From positions 1,400,579-1,464,578 of the forward strand of contig ML996688.1 of NCBI GenBank assembly GCA_010356995.1: 64,000 nt of DNA. The letters run 5' to 3'. Shown here in pieces: positions 39,709-59,663 of this stretch. Source of the stretch: Trichodelitschia bisporula (Eukaryota; Ascomycota; Dothideomycetes; Phaeotrichales; Phaeotrichaceae). A model generated the notes under the pieces. It did not search any database, was not told where the DNA came from, and saw nothing but the letters and a program-made list of their open reading frames with translations. Made by a program: the position numbers and the translations under genes. Position 1 is the first letter of the stretch. Each line of letters opens with the position of its first letter.

Positions 39709-41557
39709 ATGCAGCGCGCTCTGTCTGCTCGTGCGAGAGCTACTGCTCTGAATGCGTCGCGGCTCAGGTCGACCGTCAGCTTCCAGCAGCAGCGCTTCGC
39801 TCACAAGGTACGGCGTGACCATCCCTTGTGTAAGTTGCGGTAGCTTACAATGTTTGACAGGAACTCAAGTTCGGCGTTGAGGGCCGTGCTGCCCTCCTCG
39901 CTGGTGTCGACACCCTTGCTCGGGCCGTCGCAACTACCCTAGGTCCCAAGGGCCGAAATGTCCTGATTGAGTCCAGTTATGGCTCGCCGAAGATCACCAA
40001 GGGTAGGCTTCGCAATTGCGCTTCTGGCACACAAACGTGCTGACACATATAGACGGTGTGTCCGTGGCCAAGGCCATTACGCTCAAGGACAAGTTCGAGA
40101 ACCTTGGTGCCCGGCTGATCCAAGATGTTGCCTCCAAGACGAATGAGGTTGCCGGTGACGGCACCACCACTGCTACCGTCCTTGCCCGCGCCATCTTCTC
40201 CGAGACCGTGAAGAACGTCGCCGCTGGCTGCAACCCCATGGACTTGCGCCGCGGCACACAGGCCGCCGTCGAGGCTGTCGTCGAGTATTTGGCGCGCAAC
40301 AAGCGGGATATCACCACCAGCGAAGAGATCTCGCAGGTTGCCACCATCAGCGCCAACGGCGACACCCATATTGGCAAGCTCCTGTCTAGCGCCATGGAGA
40401 AGGTTGGCAAGGAGGGCGTCATCACGGTCAAGGAGGGCAAGACCGTTGAGGACGAGCTTGAGGTCACTGAGGGCATGAAGTTTGACCGTGGCTTCGTATC
40501 CCCGTACTTCATCACCGACCCCAAGGCGCAGAAGGTCGAGTTCGAGAAGCCTCTGATCCTCCTCTCGGAGAAGAAGATCTCGGCTGTCCAGGACATCATT
40601 CCTGCGCTCGAGGTCTCGCAGCAACTTCGCCGCCCGCTGGTCATCATCGCTGAGGACATTGAGGGCGAGGCCCTTGCCGTCTGCATCCTCAACAAGCTCC
40701 GTGGCCAGCTCCAGGTTGCGGCAGTCAAGGCTCCCGGCTTCGGCGACAACCGCAAGTCTATCCTCGGCGACATTGCCGTTCTCACCAACGGCACCGTCTT
40801 CACCGATGAGCTTGACATCAAGCTCGAGAAGGCTACCGCGGAAATGCTTGGTTCTACTGGTTCCATCACTATCACCAAGGAAGACACCGTCATCCTTAAC
40901 GGTGAAGGCTCCAAGGATGCCATCGCCCAGCGCGCAGAGCAGATCCGCGGTGTCATGAGCGACCCTACTACCTCCGAGTACGAGAAGGAGAAGCTGCAAG
41001 AGCGGCTTGCCAAGCTTTCCGGCGGTGTTGCGGTCATCAAGGTTGGCGGTTCGTCGGAGGTCGAGGTCGGTGAGAAGAAGGACCGGATCGTTGATGCGCT
41101 TAATGCCACGCGTGCCGCCGTTGAGGAGGGTATCCTGCCCGGTGGTGGCACGGGCCTGCTCAAGGCTGCCGCCAACGCGCTCAACGAGATGAAGCCCGCC
41201 AACTTTGACCAGAAGCTTGGCGTGGATATTGTTCGCAAGGCTATTACGCAGCCTGCTCGCATGATCGTCGACAATGCCGGCGACCAGGGCGCAGTTGTCG
41301 TTGGCAAGCTGATGGAAGAATTTGGCTCCGACTTTAACAAGGGCTATGACAGCGCCAAAGGAGAGTTCGTCGACATGATCGCTGCCGGTATCCTGGATCC
41401 CTTCAAGGTTGTCCGGACCGCACTTGTTGACGCCAGCGGTGTCGCTTCGCTGCTAGGCACGACTGAGGTTGCCATCGTGGAGGCGCCTGAGGAGAAGGCG
41501 CCGCCGATGCCTGGCATGGGCGGTGGCATGGGCGGCATGGGCGGTGGCATGTTCTAA
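39709..41557 (+). CDS. HSP60: Mitochondrial chaperonin Hsp60
   Basis: Three exons: 39709-39807, 39861-40002, 40053-41557, giving 581 residues. Exon 1 encodes exactly the mitochondrial presequence (33 residues, many Arg, no acids), ending RFAHK. Group I chaperonin marks: [44 protein letters not shown] with the ATP-binding [31 protein letters not shown] and the C-terminal GGM repeats ([13 protein letters not shown]). It folds imported proteins in the matrix as a tetradecamer with Hsp10. Codon use is strongly biased to C-ending codons, fitting high expression, and long antisense frames here are by-products of that bias. Confidence 0.98.
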
Positions 41558-51872: not shown

Positions 51873-54800
51873 CTATTCAGATTTCGACCACAGTGCATAG
51901 ATCTCGTGAGACCCGAGCACCTTGTCAACCAGAACATGCTCCCCAGAATAGCTGAACGGAATCCTGGACTCTTTCATCACAGCAGGGTCAATCAGCTTGC
52001 TGCTCAGCTTGGTCATGAGCGCACCCGGCGGGACTACCAGGGCTTGCCCATCCAAAAGAGGGCGGCGCTCAAGCAGATCGGGCCCGCAGAGATACTTCAG
52101 CTGATCTTGAAGGTCAACAATGCCGGAGGCCAGGGCCTCGTCGGCTAGGCTGAAGCCAGGGAAGCGGCATCGTATTATGCGCGCCTGGGCTTCGTTCCAT
52201 ACCTCCAGCTCGGCGCGAAAATCAGCTATCGGAGGCCGACACTCGATGCGAAGAATGATGCCAGGCCACGAATCATTCGAAGTCGGCCTAGAATCGAGGC
52301 TGCGGCGCTCGTGAATAGTCAGAATAGACCCGCTCGTAACTTCGTAGAAGTCTCCGCCAGCGGACGGGAGTTTCAACTCTGCTTGATCCAGACGCAGGAC
52401 AAAGTCGCTTTCTGTGGTGTATAGCAGCCACTTAGTCTGGTTGCGTACGAAGGCACAGATCGCCGCAGACTTGCCATGTCCGAAGTTAGGTGGTCCTGGT
52501 AATACCAAGGTTTGGCTGGCCCACGGTGTAGCACGGACTCCTCCGGATCCGATGTACACGCTAAATCGCTCTGCAGCGGATGAAATGCACTCGTGGCCGA
52601 ACTTCTTAGCCTGTTGCCATGCACGAAGTACTGCAGCATGCTCGGATAGCTCATCATCCTTGCCCACATCCTGCACACTGAAGTGGCTGTATTCACCAGG
52701 GCTTGATGACTGCAACACAGTGAGCCAGAATCTTCACATGGAGGACGTGGCTTGTTAACTCACCTTCCAGTCCCAGGAAACCCCGTAGTAGTCGAGCGTA
52801 TCCATAGACAGAGCGGCCCGACTTACTTGGTTAAAGTGATGCGAATTGTCGGCTGACATATGTCGGCGCCCCCAATCAAACTTTGAAGGCACTCCCATCT
52901 CAGGAGACCAGACCGTGCATACCGTGAGCATAGCCGGGGCTATCTGCCCGTCTCTGTAGGTCTCCAGCTGACACCAGCTGCATGCTTTGTGAAAGCACAC
53001 CAGGCAATTGCGAGTGATCATGGGGCGAGCTGCGCACATGCAGCAGGTCCAAGGCGCTGCGCTTCTCAAGCTCTGGGTATAGGGCGAAGAATTCAAAGAT
53101 GATGACTGGGGGCGGGAAAGCGAAGAACCTGTCCATGAGCGTTGCTGTTGCGGCGGCTGAGGACCGGGAACGGACTCATGAAGCCGGTTTGTCGAAGAGC
53201 GTCGCTGGAAGGAACGCCGTGTAATCTCATCCTGAGCGATATCTAGGCCAAGAGCAAAGTACTCGCTAAATTGAGAAGTCAGCATCGACCTTTTGGGCAG
53301 CAAAATGGTTCACGGCAGCGTCGACACAGTTTGAAAGGCCGGGAAGGTGAATCAAACTCACTTGAGAATTGCTTTGTACATATGCCACAGAGATTTCTGA
53401 GGAGTGGTTAGCATTCCACCTTAGAAAGTCGCCACCCTGCTTACCGTATACACACAGAAGATGACCTGCTTTAGGCTCGTTTCCTTTTCCTCCTCTAAGT
53501 ATCGCTTAACCTCGTCAACCGCAATCTCGGCGGCCTCCGCAGCAAACGACCCCCGATTAAGGTTGGCAAGCGCAAGAGATTTTAACCCCGCACGGGAAGC
53601 CATTTCGAGGCACGCCCGGTATTGGCGACGAAGCACATGCTTTTGACGTGCTTTGGCAGTGAGGCTCGGGGGAGCACCGACGCTGTGGATAACCTTGGAG
53701 CAGGGCAGATAGTGACCATCGGTCATGACGGCGTCCCCTTCACCACAGTCGGGAAGTTGAGCACAGTCACTCTGGAGTAGAGGTCCAGCAGCGTTGAACA
53801 CTGCCGCCCGGAGTTGAGAAACGCCAATGATGCCTAGCCTTTTCGTTGCGGAGATGGCGATAGCCTCAACATCAAGCTTGGATATGTCGTGTTTCACCAA
53901 GCTTATCCGGTCGGTAATCTGAAGTCTCTGTATATGTGACTCGAGAACGGCAGGGGGCGATGTCGAGCGCTTCTTTTGCGGTTGATCAACAGGAGTAGGT
54001 ACCTCAACTGGTGATCTAGTTGCCGGTTCAACTGGTATGAGCGGTTGAACGGATGTCGCTGTTGATGGTTGAGAAGACTGCTCCGATGGCGAGGACGTGG
54101 ACGGCCTGGGAGGAAAGAAGCGGCTAAGACGGCCAAATTAGTGCCCCAACGTTCGAACTACCGAATGGCCTAGGTCTTCACTTACGGAATTGCCTGTTCA
54201 TATGCAACTCTAATGTCTTCGGAAAAGACGCAGAAAACGATGCGGTCAAATTTCTGTCCTGCCTCACTGTCCAGGAGCGATCGTGCTTCATGAGCGGCAA
54301 TGAGAGCCCCGGTAAAGGGAGGGCACGCAAGACTTCCAGTCAATAGCGACGGAATTGCTATGCTACGCACCCCATTCTCCACTGCAAGGGCAAATATGCG
54401 GCGATAGAGTTTTCGGAGAAAGGCCTCGCCATCCGGAAGTGCCGTGGGCCAAGGTACTCCAGCAGCATGAAAGATGAGTTTGCAAGGCAGTTTGTAGCCC
54501 TTGGTCACCACGACTGATCCAGGTTTGCACTGGCCTATAGCCTTCAAGTCGTTGGCAAGTTCAGGGCCTGCAGCATTCGAAACTGCTCGACTCACGGTCT
54601 TGCGTCCACCAGGTGACAGATCAACATGCGTGGGACAAGCAATGGCGTCGACTTGCATCTGGACGATATCCGCAAAGACGAAAGAGAGTTTGCTGTTGGC
54701 GCTCATAGAATATTCCGCCTTAGCCTGGGAGGATGGTGCAAGCTGTCTGTGTTGATAGAGTTCGTCAACGGTTCCTATCATGTGCAGGGGAGTCGGTTTG

Positions 54801-57163
54801 GTGACCTGTCGTTGGCGGAGTTCTTCAAGTTCGTGGAAATCTCGAGGTTCAATCAGTATCATGGGGTTCGCAGCAAGCTGATCCGTCTTGTTTTTGGAGC
54901 TTTCAGCGGTCAGTTAATGGTCTTTGAAGATGATTGAAGCCATGCCTTGGATCAGTGTATAGCACGAAGTGCAACGCGACATCCAAAATCTTTTTGAATG
55001 TCTCAAAGCGCTTTATGAGGTTGAAACCTTCTTGAGCGAAATGGTTTACCAAACTGTCCCAGTTTCTCTCATTGAGTAAATTGTCCTCCGCACCGCGGCT
55101 TGACAGCTCGAATTGTCGGGAGTAGCCATCAAGAGTCATGGAAAGAGTGTCGTGCAGCAATTCAAGGGGGGTTTCAAGGTCAAGTCGGTATCGTTCTTTA
55201 TCAAAACTTCCGAGCCCCGTGGCAAGTGCATGAACCTTAGAAGATATCTTGAGAAGTTGTTGCGTAGTACTGTGAATGACGACGTAGTTCTTTAGGGTTG
55301 GGAGCTGGTGATTAAGCGCATTGAGTTGGCTAACGAATGCATCGACGCCCTCCACAAACTTGAGTAGACGTGAGGCAAGCGGTATATCATTACTCTCATT
55401 CTCCGCACTGCCTTGGCCGGAGCTGACGGAATCCGACCCGGATGTAGTGTTGTCGTATCCTTCTGAAACCGCGAGCGAGTTTGCATCTCCTTGCTGGCTG
55501 TTGTCGACATCTCCGATAAGAAGCACATCCCGCGGAAGTGAAAAGAGAGCTATGCGTTCGAGGTGATTAGCGATGTGACTTTGCAACCCACCATGGACTG
55601 TAGTGGAATCGGCGTAGCAGATGGGACAGTGAGCACGACTGTCAATTGCGGTTGTCCTGGCAGCTGTCACAACATTGGCAAGCTGAGAGTATGTGAGATC
55701 CTTGCCATGATCCACTTCCAGATGACGTTCGAGAGCGCTTCTGGTCTTGAATACAGCATCTATGTGTACCGGGCACTGCCAGAGTTGACGGTGGGATGTT
55801 GCCTCATGCTCTAGCCACTCACGACGGCTGCGGAATATTTGGTCCGGATGCTCGCAATCGGGATATGTACACATGTATGGTGACAAATCTTGCAGCAGAT
55901 GAGACCTAGATATATGTCAACATCAGAAAAAGACACGTACGGACGAGATGCCTACCTCCATCCCCTTTCGGTTTCTCCATATCTTGACGGACATATGATG
56001 AAGCAATAAGGACACTCGAAGTCTCTGCCGCTTTTTGCGTTCGCTGGTATCCCAGGAATTTCGATGGCTCTGCCTGAAAGATCGCGGGCGGTCGTCGCAA
56101 CTGAGGTAACGGACATGGAATCCACTGCTTCATCCAGGCTGACGTGGTGCTTAGTCGCTTCCGTCGCAGAGAGAAGAGTTTGGGGTGTCCGGTCTGTGGG
56201 CGCAACGGGGACATGAGCGGCATCGCGGATTTCCGTGACAGTATGAGCATCGTTGGCCTGATGGAGTCCCGCCTCCTTCTGCTCATCTCGTGCTTCATTT
56301 TCCAGCTCCAAGCGCAGTTCCTTAGCTACAGCGGTGAGCTTTTCTCGATGTCGTCGCCAGTATCGAAACTGTTGACGCCGACGAGTGACTGCCCTGCCCA
56401 ACCGTTTGACTATGAAGTCATCCTTGGCAAACGGAGCAGAACGACCCTGACGGAGGTCTCGGATCGTGTCCTCAACGAACTGCCTGTCGTATGTAGCGTA
56501 CTTTTCGATGAGATCAACACCGGTTTCTCTGTCCATCTCTTTGTACGAAGCCGCCTTCACTCCACGGGAACGGACAGTGGGGCTTCGAATCCTTATGGAT
56601 AACTTGTAGAGGTTATCAATGATGTCCACTACCTCTGAGAGTCGCATAGCAAGTTCATATCGCGGCACATCATCGTCGTCTACGTCGGTACTGGCCAAGG
56701 AGCTGACAGAATCGCCCATGTCACTCCATCCATCATCGGAAACATCGTCATTTGTCGATCTGAGCTCCTCCATAGGCAACCTGTGGCCATGCACGACATC
56801 ATGAGCTACATGCACCTTAGCCATCAAGCAAATGAGAAGGAGCAAGTCAGTGGTCAAACCTTCAATAAGATTCTGATTCAGCTCCGTCAACAGCTTCGTC
56901 ACATTCTCCATCAACAACGGAGACTCTTTGAGGCGATAATCCAGTGATGAGTGCCCGCGCTGCAGCGCTCCCAGATTGCCACACCAAACCCGAAAACGTC
57001 CTTGTTCATCGACGAGCTCCGACGTGGGCATCGCATTCTGGAAGGTATCGGATCCCGTTGCCAACCCAGCCAAAACGTTCTTAAACAGTATCACACATTC
57101 TGATGCCAGACTACTGATAGTCCATACCGTTCCCGGAGTCTCGTTCATGGCCGTTGCCTTCAT
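51873..57163 (-). CDS. Large C2H2-finger protein with two degenerate macrodomains
   Basis: Minus strand, about 1,640 residues. Exons: 57163-55956, 55905 to about 54966, about 54886-54186, 54123-53445, 53396-53362, 53289-52764, 52709-51873. All junctions but the second are well supported. Residues 1-380: alpha-helical, beginning with a segment (FRVWCGNLGALQRGHSSLDYRL) common ahead of fungal C2H2 arrays. About 383-510: four Cys/His units (FECPYC, YMCTYPDC with HEATSH, WQCPVH, HCPICY with HIANH). About 780-945 and 1022-1176: two macrodomains, recognisable from ADIVQMQVDAI, NAAGPEL, IFHAAGVPWP, and HDISKLDVEAI, FNAAGPLL, VIHSVGAPP; the NAAN and GGGV catalytic/binding segments are lost in both. 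About 1270-1295: Cys-rich finger CCMC...NCLVC...CSWC. The last 280 residues are unassigned. Role unknown; reading or sensing of ADP-ribose-like ligands is only inferred. Confidence 0.8.
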
Positions 57164-57748
57164 TGCGGAAAGTTGAATTTGAAAAGGTCCCGTGATTAAG
57201 ATGAGGTTGAGAACTTTGAGATTTGCGCGAGAGCTGTCTCTGCACTGAGAGCCGATGGCGAGACCCCAGACCTCGCTGGGTTCATGTTACATATGTATGT
57301 ATCGGCGTCGAGCAAGGCACTTTCTCTGACTCAAGTGGCTCTGGCAGGCTGTGATGGCTGATGGCCACGACTGACGGCGGGGCAGACTCAAGATGTCGGG
57401 GGCGGTGCCTCGATGTATCTTGGCGAGGATGGGAGCATTTCAAATCCCTTGCAGGCCGTGAGAGTGGCGGTGTCGGTTGCTGCGTGCGAATCGTCCCGTC
57501 TGGCCGCGCCACTACTGCAGGCGGATTCTGGACGTCTGGTCTTTAATATCTTCGTCCTTCCCCACCTAACTCCTTCCTCGATCTCTCCGGAATCAGCCTG
57601 TCCAACTTGGCCAGTTCGACTAATAGAACGTCGGATTTATAGCACAGTTTCTGGCCCCCAAATCAGCCGTACCCCGCACCTGGACATGAGCATATCACTG
57701 TAGAAGAGTGCAACCCACCTGTCTCACGAAGCAGTCAAAGTCAACGCA
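57164..57748. promoter_or_regulatory. Divergent promoter, macrodomain and DUF7580 genes
   Basis: 585 bases between two divergent starts; both promoters must lie here. No TATA box in an obvious place and no repeated operator seen. Confidence 0.5.
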
Positions 57749-59663
57749 ATGAGCGGCATCGAAATCGCCGGCCTCATTCTTGGAGGGCTGCCGCTTGTCA
57801 TCTCGGCGCTGGAGCATTACAACAACGGGCTCGATCCCATCAAGGCGTTCTACCGATGGGAGCGCGAGCTGCCGCAGTATATCCGTAAGCTGCGTAACCA
57901 GCATGTTCACTACCAGCAGACACTGCGCCTGCTCCTCGAGCCCATCACCGACGAACATGAGCTGGCGGATATGATTGCCAACGCCGATGCGCCGGCGTGG
58001 ACCGACGACCGCATCGCGCAGGCGCTGGAGGAGCGACTTGGTGATTCATATGTTGCTTATGGGGATACGGTGGCGGAGATCAGTCGTGTCATGCGTACAA
58101 TTGCAAGCAAGCTGGACGTCGGAAGCACGAATGTAAGTGCCCGCACAATGGCGAAATGAGACGAGACAAAGACAGGGTTCCAATTCTTACTCTCGTAGAC
58201 CTCTCGGAGTGACCTCGAAGCTCTACTCCTCTCAAAGCAGCGCCCCTCGGGCCGAAACGGCTTCGAATGGAAGAAACGCATCAAGTTCGGCATGTCCAAG
58301 CGTGCCATCAAGACGCTCCTCGACGAGCTGGACGGCTATGTCAAGGAACTAGAGCGCTTCACCGAGCGCGGCGAGAAGCTTGAATCGCAACAAGCGGTTG
58401 GCGCAGGCTCAGGCTCTGTCTCAGGCACCTGGAAAACGTCGTTCGTGGCCCCGCTGGAGCATGTACGTGCTGGTGCACGGCTGCTGCATCAGGCTATGAC
58501 GCAGTGGAATTGCGCATGCGAAGCGTTGCATTCCACACATATCAAGCTCGAGCAGCGGGTTATCGTATCGCGCTCTAAGACACCGAAGCGCCCCAAGAAT
58601 GCGGATGAGCTGCGGTTTCGGGTGTCGGTCACTACGGCTGAGACTACTTTCAAGTGGAATGATGTCGAGGTTTCGGTCCGGCACACCGAACCCGAATCAC
58701 CACCACCCGAGTACGAACAGTACGTATTCCATCCCTCTCTCGTATAGTCTAAATCCTAACCCACCTAGAAACTTGCCGGAGCTCAAACACTCCGCAACAG
58801 CAATATCTGCCTATTCCGTCAAGTCGGTCTCAACCATGAAGTCCTCCCTGACAATGAAATCCTCCGTCACATTCAGCGTAACCGCCCCCTCCATCCCCCC
58901 CAGCGTCCACGACCTCAGCCTCCTCGAAATCGACAACATATGCCACACCCTCCGGCAAGCCTCCCGCACCACCCCACTCCTAGGCTTCTGCCTCGACCCT
59001 TCCGGTAAGCTACGCGGAATATATCCCGTTTCAGACGAGGATACCACCCTCAAGCCCCCTCCACAAGGCACCATCACGCTGGACGAGCTGCTCCGCAGCC
59101 CCGTCATCAAAGGCAAAAGGGCGCGTCTCAGCAGGAAAGACCGCCTCGCGCTCGCCGTAAACATCGCTTCAAGTACATTACAGCTATGTACAACGCCCTG
59201 GCTGCCCGCGCACTGCTACTGCGCATCGGACATCGTCTTCCCGCGCACAGACGGGAGCCCCGCCTTCGACATCGAGTCCGCATATCTGCGCTCCACCCCC
59301 TACGGGCCGGACACAAAGGGCACCAAGCCACTCTTAAACAACGACAACGCCACGCTCCTCGCGCTCGGCCTCATGCTACTAGAACTCTACTTCGGCGAAT
59401 CGAGCGACACCCACACGGAGACCGAAGACCTAGGCCCTAACAACAAACCAAACGCCTTTACTGCGCTCGCCGTCGCCCAGCGCTGGGTGCTCGACGAGCG
59501 TGATAATCTCTCCGCTGGCTTCTTGCAGGCTGTGTCTCATTGTTTGCGCTGCTTTGCTGATCCACGTAGTAGCCTGCATGACCCGCCCTTTTTGCAGGCT
59601 GCTATTGATGAAATCATTGTTCCCCTCCAAGTCGAGCTGTGGCAGTTCACTGGTGCGCGGTAA
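57749..59663 (+). CDS. DUF7580-type fungal protein (kinase-like C-terminal lobe)
   Basis: Three exons: 57749-58132, 58199-58719, 58769-59663, giving 599 residues. The N-terminus MSGIEIAGLILGGLPLVISA with ALEHYNNGLDPIK is the hallmark of a large fungal family; it resembles the hydrophobic starts of HeLo/SesA-like and other NLR-type N-terminal domains. The middle is helical. The C-terminal part carries SRKDRLALAVNIASSTLQL, TPWLPAHCYCASDIVF and LALGLMLLELYFGESSD, similar to the C-lobe of protein kinases but without HRD or DFG, so a pseudokinase. I identify the family from memory as DUF7580. A role in self-recognition or cell-death signalling is an inference from related architectures. Its stop is 20 bases from the convergent SEC8 stop. 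Confidence 0.85.

Follow-up and report, generated by a model that had tools for sequence, protein, structure and literature searches.

Analysis of a 64,000-nucleotide window of the genome of the ascomycete fungus Trichodelitschia bisporula (assembly GCA_010356995.1, contig ML996688.1, forward-strand positions 1,400,579 to 1,464,578; coordinates below are positions within this window) found, in a predicted minus-strand gene at 57163-51873, two tandem macrodomains in which the NAAN segment and the Asp/His dyad of the MacroD hydrolases are missing. We tentatively read the gene as encoding a single fungal protein whose two MacroD-type macrodomains, devoid of MacroD catalysis, form a sensing or docking module between C2H2-like fingers and a C-terminal Cys-rich finger with its adjoining unassigned domain, a reading that is plausible while falling somewhat short of probable.

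That two macrodomains occur in tandem is beyond doubt; such domains ordinarily recognize ADP-ribose tags or take them off. The first-pass annotation of this DNA had described two macrodomain-like units in a row, and database searches agree. For Pfam, the protein was scanned in two pieces, residues 1-722 and everything encoded from the ATG at 54862 onward, leaving out the few residues between; Macro (PF01661) was the sole family above cut-off in these pieces, matching two stretches with 118 bits and an E-value of 2.8e-34 where the gathering cut-off is 22. Macrodomain 1 (macro1) occupies residues 778-947 (54105-54694, minus strand, a span that includes the intron 54185-54106), macrodomain 2 (macro2) occupies residues 1012-1178 (53364-53912, minus strand, including the intron 53444-53397), and a stretch rich in Pro and Ser, recognized from the sequence, links them (53946-54104, minus strand). 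Searched alone against the sequences of the PDB, each unit has human MACROD1 as its best match, with E-values of 8.1e-21 for macro1 and 8.8e-21 for macro2. Identity of macro1 to MACROD1, MACROD2, and a Trypanosoma brucei macrodomain is 31-32%, and macro2 also matches the Zn-Macro chain 8rsi with an E-value of 2e-14. In a PDB match covering query residues 12-216, the stretch just before macro1 (54694-54862, minus strand) is aligned to the N-terminal extension of human MACROD2, an indication that the start of the macrodomain unit lies close to the ATG at 54862.

The fold was modeled for macro1, while macro2 is assigned from sequence alone. An AlphaFold2 (AF2) model of macro1, built on a 57-row alignment of macro1, macro2, and 55 bacterial MacroD relatives, has a mean predicted local distance difference test (pLDDT) of 77.8 and a predicted template modeling score (pTM) of 0.72. 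Confidence is low over its first 70 residues; from residue 71 onward, 12 of 17 ten-residue blocks average a pLDDT of at least 90, and three blocks are lowest, at 71-74: residues 91-100 and 181-190, within which loops 1 and 2 of the cleft lie, and residues 151-160. Compared with the PDB by Foldseek, the model returned 786 matches at E-values up to 10 and 195 at up to 0.001. The top E-value, 9.4e-15, belongs to MacroD2 (4iqy; TM-scores 0.65 and 0.70), with a root-mean-square deviation (rmsd) of 15.0 over 213 columns that is probably so high because the low-confidence N-terminal stretch is included. Escherichia coli YmdB (1spv) fits with an rmsd of 1.8 over 173 columns and a TM-score of 0.89 by its own length. 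The structural check proposed along with the first-pass annotation has therefore come out in favor of a macrodomain fold for macro1.

In MacroD1 and MacroD2, according to PMC7729036 and PMC11490716, NAAN and a glycine loop together hold the distal ribose, and the Asp/His dyad of the motif GGGxDx3H aids catalysis. At the NAAN position macro1 reads CPTH and macro2 reads ISAT in both alignments used, so the claim that both units had lost this segment holds. The catalytic Asp is replaced by Ser in macro1 and Arg in macro2, and the His by Ser and Phe, respectively, again in both alignments. In loop 2, IST has become LLT in macro1 and LNR in macro2, which is then short by three residues. The accompanying claim that the GGGV loop was gone from both was overstated for macro1, which keeps the Val and, depending on the alignment, one or two Gly; macro2 retains one Gly. 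The adenine-side Asp and the Gly of loop 2 are retained in both units, and many scaffold positions persist while NAAN, Asp, and His change: the 55 bacterial rows have 43 columns that are conserved at 95% or more, of which macro1 matches 22 and macro2 matches 25. These rows derive from loci found with the patterns DAIVNAAN and GGVDG[CA]IH, so that conservation of the motifs among them is built in by selection. From the best 80 of 589 confirmed loci, one (L052) was dropped for a stop codon and 24 others were left out. The rows for MACROD1, MACROD2, and the T. brucei protein are independent of this selection and show the same losses in macro1 and macro2. Loss of classic MacroD catalysis is well supported by these comparisons, and hydrolysis by the classic route appears very unlikely; binding of ADP-ribose by the two units may have persisted or may have been lost. 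The proposal that they would be readers or decoys rather than hydrolases therefore stands in its second half, with the classic active site gone, while "readers or decoys" says more than the data allow, because the same losses remove ribose-binding residues and a non-binding scaffold is equally possible.

A tree that took in 19 of the 55 bacterial rows joins macro1 to macro2 with support of 89/65, and the program warns of long branches meeting. The branches measure 3.82 changes per column for macro1 and 3.30 for macro2 (4.03 for PARP14 macrodomain 1). Such a tree cannot place either unit, and the grouping is no demonstration of tandem duplication.

The gene model joins seven exons in frame, from the ATG at 57163 to the stop codon ending at 51873: 55956-57163, 54966-55905, 54186-54877, 53445-54105, 53362-53396, 52764-53265, and 51873-52709, all minus strand. 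Five of the six introns (55955-55906, 54185-54106, 53444-53397, 53361-53266, and 52763-52710) are plain GT-AG introns of 48-96 nucleotides, with the donors GTAGGC, GTAAGT, GTAAGC, GTGAGT, and GTGAGT in the same order. Codon scores, trained on 12 other open reading frames within the window, place the spliced frame first among the three in each of the seven exon pieces scored (exon 5 was left out), and the alignment of spliced macro2 with MACROD1 extends eight residues beyond the junction of exons 4 and 5. The in-frame joins, the five plain introns, and the codon scores together bear out the seven minus-strand exons described earlier. In exon 1 there is also a candidate in-frame intron of 54 nucleotides with splice-like ends (56859-56806), whose removal would excise a hydrophobic stretch around LLLLICLMAKVHV; the region 56809-56862 has a codon score of 0.139 in its own frame, which is coding-like and gives no support to an intron.

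The second intron is the doubtful one, and the length of the protein depends on it: 1624, 1628, or 1638 amino acids, with 1624 for the best-scoring junction. The frame of exon 2 meets a stop codon at 54905-54903, and the first ATG in the frame of exon 3 lies at 54862, after a gap of 40 nucleotides. A junction scan that allowed GT donors or two GC donors and intron lengths of 40-160 nucleotides found seven candidate in-frame introns able to span the junction. The top two tie, 54965-54878 (88 nucleotides) and 54965-54806 (160 nucleotides), with GTGCTA as the donor in both. We take the shorter, on the minus strand, as the best candidate; it is a GT-AG intron with the acceptor CAG and a CTGAC branch site. 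Others include GC-AG 54945-54900 and GT-AG 54975-54900. Measured with ad hoc weights devised for this analysis, the signals of intron 2 are the weakest of the six, as its best option reaches 5.5 including a branch-site bonus of 1.5, versus 5.6-7.5 for the others without the bonus. When both flanks were kept and the middle 128 nucleotides shuffled, some in-frame intron arose in 2620 of 3000 trials, and an equal or better one in 1137 of 3000.

These weak signals, and the ease with which shuffled middles yield an equally good intron, are what would be expected of two adjacent genes on the same strand, the first encoding a C2H2-finger protein that ends at 54905-54903 and the second a protein with two macrodomains and the Cys-rich finger that starts from the ATG at 54862. 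Such an arrangement is nevertheless unlikely. A gap of 40 nucleotides is too short to hold a separate terminator and promoter unless these overlap coding sequence, and the stretch 54899-54863, immediately 5' of that ATG, weakly favors continuity in that the frame of exon 3 scores best of the three there, over 12 codons only, part of which is intron under the best-scoring junction. Because the stop codon and the next ATG are only 40 nucleotides apart, we consider a single gene likelier than two, and infer one transcript.

For such a protein, a sensor or docking role is the most economical account. Both macrodomains would no longer hydrolyze ADP-ribose links; the remaining cleft, with its adenine-side Asp and loop 2 Gly, would hold a ligand resembling ADP-ribose or a partner that is ADP-ribosylated; and this would be relayed to the flanking domains. 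The possible role would then be the sensing of a signal, not the removal of a tag. The bacterial Thoeris transmembrane-macro (TM-macro) effectors offer a precedent for the macrodomain as a sensor, and PMC11204291 describes a ThsA macrodomain that self-aggregates and binds both ADP-ribose (ADPR) and imidazole adenine dinucleotide.

Several points weigh against the account just given. By the shuffling test the junction at 54.9 kb does not rise above chance, and its splice signals leave it possible without proving it. No match to a PADLOC defense family was obtained for macro1, macro2, or exon 7. The very long branches of macro1 and macro2 fit a loss of constraint, though that of PARP14 macrodomain 1 is as long. 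Binding of ADP-ribose, finally, may have gone with the Asn of NAAN, the residue that coordinates the distal ribose; viral MacroD loses its activity when this Asn is mutated (PMC7729036). In favor of the account, by contrast, the N114A mutant of the Thoeris ThsA macrodomain still binds ADPR, with changed signal intensities (PMC11204291), though N114 may or may not correspond to the NAAN Asn.

On the strength of the same losses, both macrodomains might instead be dead scaffolds, binding no ADP-ribose and serving only as protein-protein interfaces, whether encoded by one gene or by two. NAAN, the dyad, and part of loop 2 are lost in both units, and the branches are very long, as would suit such scaffolds; the adenine-side Asp and loop 2 Gly kept in both units count against this, and we judge this explanation unlikely to about the same degree as the two-gene model. 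That one or both units hydrolyze ADP-ribose links by other chemistry, as viral MacroD and Zn-Macro proteins do with other residues, is very improbable: the catalytic motifs of MacroD-type proteins do vary (GGGxDx3H, HGGG, GxGxC, and the zinc-binding Cx4HxC, according to PMC7729036 and PMC11490716), but as read from the alignments neither HGGG nor GxGxC, nor the Zn-Macro zinc loop Cx4HxC, is present at the loop 1 position of either unit, and both units lack the NAAN that the same papers name for the coronavirus and Zn-Macro variants.

The sensor or docking reading admits a more elaborate form that is just as improbable, a fungal receptor in which the non-hydrolyzing pair would sense a signal derived from nicotinamide adenine dinucleotide (NAD) or carrying ADP-ribosyl groups and relay it, through the C2H2-like fingers and the C-terminal domain, to a response possibly involving the divergently transcribed DUF7580 gene described below. 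In its logic this would be the counterpart of the Thoeris macrodomain sensors.

Among known systems, the closest in sequence are the MacroD1/MacroD2-type mono-ADP-ribosyl hydrolases (human MACROD1 and MACROD2, bacterial MacroD), among which are the top PDB hit by sequence for both units and the first fold match of macro1. In contrast to these, the units described here lack NAAN and the Asp/His dyad, have a broken GGGV loop, stand in tandem, and, if there is one gene, are fused to fingers. The GDAP2-like macrodomains are also of MacroD type and have no reported catalytic activity (PMC11490716), but GDAP2 is a weaker match than MACROD1, with E-values of 9.9e-12 for macro1 and 7.2e-12 for macro2. 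PARP9 and PARP14 likewise carry tandem macrodomains in a large multidomain protein, and PARP14 matches macro1 at 7.2e-20, whereas the Pfam scan of our protein finds no ADP-ribosyltransferase family. Thoeris TM-macro ThsA resembles it as a works-like model only, through a self-aggregating macrodomain that binds an ADP-ribose signal; the host here is eukaryotic, and the PADLOC library of 2023, which covers prokaryotic systems, gave 0 families for macro1, macro2, exon 7, and the exon 2 stretch 54966-55904. As regards a transmembrane segment, exon 1 has one hydrophobic stretch, at the site of the candidate hidden intron.

The N-terminal and finger regions may resemble parts of fungal proteins similar to NOD-like receptors (NLRs). 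Unlike fungal NLRs, this protein has neither NACHT nor NB-ARC, no such family being found at E-values up to 1 in the two scanned pieces, and by sequence it is therefore not an NLR. In the main text of two papers on fungal NLRs (one of them PMC4986451), the terms C2H2, zinc finger, and ADP-ribosylation do not occur.

The finger region holds about four C2H2-like fingers and spans residues 382-527 (55533-56020, minus strand, including the intron 55955-55906). The earlier C2H2 assignment is on softer ground than that of the macrodomains: zf-C2H2_4 scores 19.2 bits (E-value 0.0019), under its Pfam cut-off of 27; two fingers fit the strict C2H2 pattern, a number reached in 26 of 20000 shuffles; and the two further fingers were recognized by eye, one having His in place of the second Cys. 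The other Pfam matches below cut-off are Zn_SUZ12 (E-value 0.048) and TY-Chap1 (E-value 0.06, residues 572-612). The Cys-rich finger WTCCMC...CLVC...CSWC is present as first described, at residues 1251-1277 (52971-53051, minus strand). The pattern Cx2C..Cx2C..Cx2C, picked after the finger had been sighted, was matched in none of 20000 shuffles of the 446-residue C-terminal part.

The regions around these fingers are on the same strand. An N-terminal region, residues 1-102 (56858-57163), is without a family match, as are residues 1-378 as a whole in Pfam, and a PDB sequence search of the N-terminal part returned only a CTCF chain (E-value 3.6, query residues 364-447, near the fingers). Residues 580-716, between the fingers and macro1 (54966-55376), look helical by inspection; there Pfam gives only the overlap with sub-cut-off TY-Chap1, and the PDB sequence search gives no match. 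The C-terminal region comprises the last 347 residues, 1278-1624 (51876-52970, including the intron 52763-52710), which have no Pfam match, and a PDB sequence search of the C-terminal part found nothing up to an E-value of 10. Exon 7, modeled by AF2 from the single sequence, reached a mean pLDDT of 33.0, with no usable fold. An FHA-like beta region seen there by eye lacks Pfam support and is not claimed. In non-fungal collections, no relative was confirmed for exon 7, for exon 2 extended as far as the stop codon, or, in viral contigs, for exon 3.

The recognized parts are each known, and the combination may be new. A fungal protein of this domain order did not appear among the matches listed in the literature searched, which consisted mostly of papers outside subscription. 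If there is one transcript, it would join C2H2-like fingers to a degenerate tandem pair of macrodomains, a fungal fusion not seen among those matches. Macrodomain sensors are known from bacterial defense, and a fungal case, if true, would hint that fungi, too, read ADP-ribose signals.

The neighboring gene, divergently oriented at 57704-59660 on the plus strand, matches DUF7580 in Pfam (E-value 3.2e-22), a family for which no mention was found in the literature searched. The first-pass annotation had called this gene HeLo-like/DUF7580; the second half of that label is secure, while the first exon, supposed to be HeLo-like, reaches the Pfam cut-off with no family, its only match being Ribonuc_2-5A at an E-value of 0.11. 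Sec8 lies beyond this gene on the minus strand. In the window, 143 open reading frames of at least 100 codons were kept, and 20 more of these were scanned with Pfam. Matches were found in 12 of the 20, none of them to a mobile-element family; the matched frames include an RsmB/F-type methyltransferase, a TCP-1 chaperonin, two with ABC ATPase domains, PIG-X, SARAF, an HPP protein, a kinase, and an AMP-binding enzyme. A 491-codon frame at 39980-41452 on the minus strand, antisense to the TCP-1 chaperonin frame and without a Pfam match, is probably a shadow frame.

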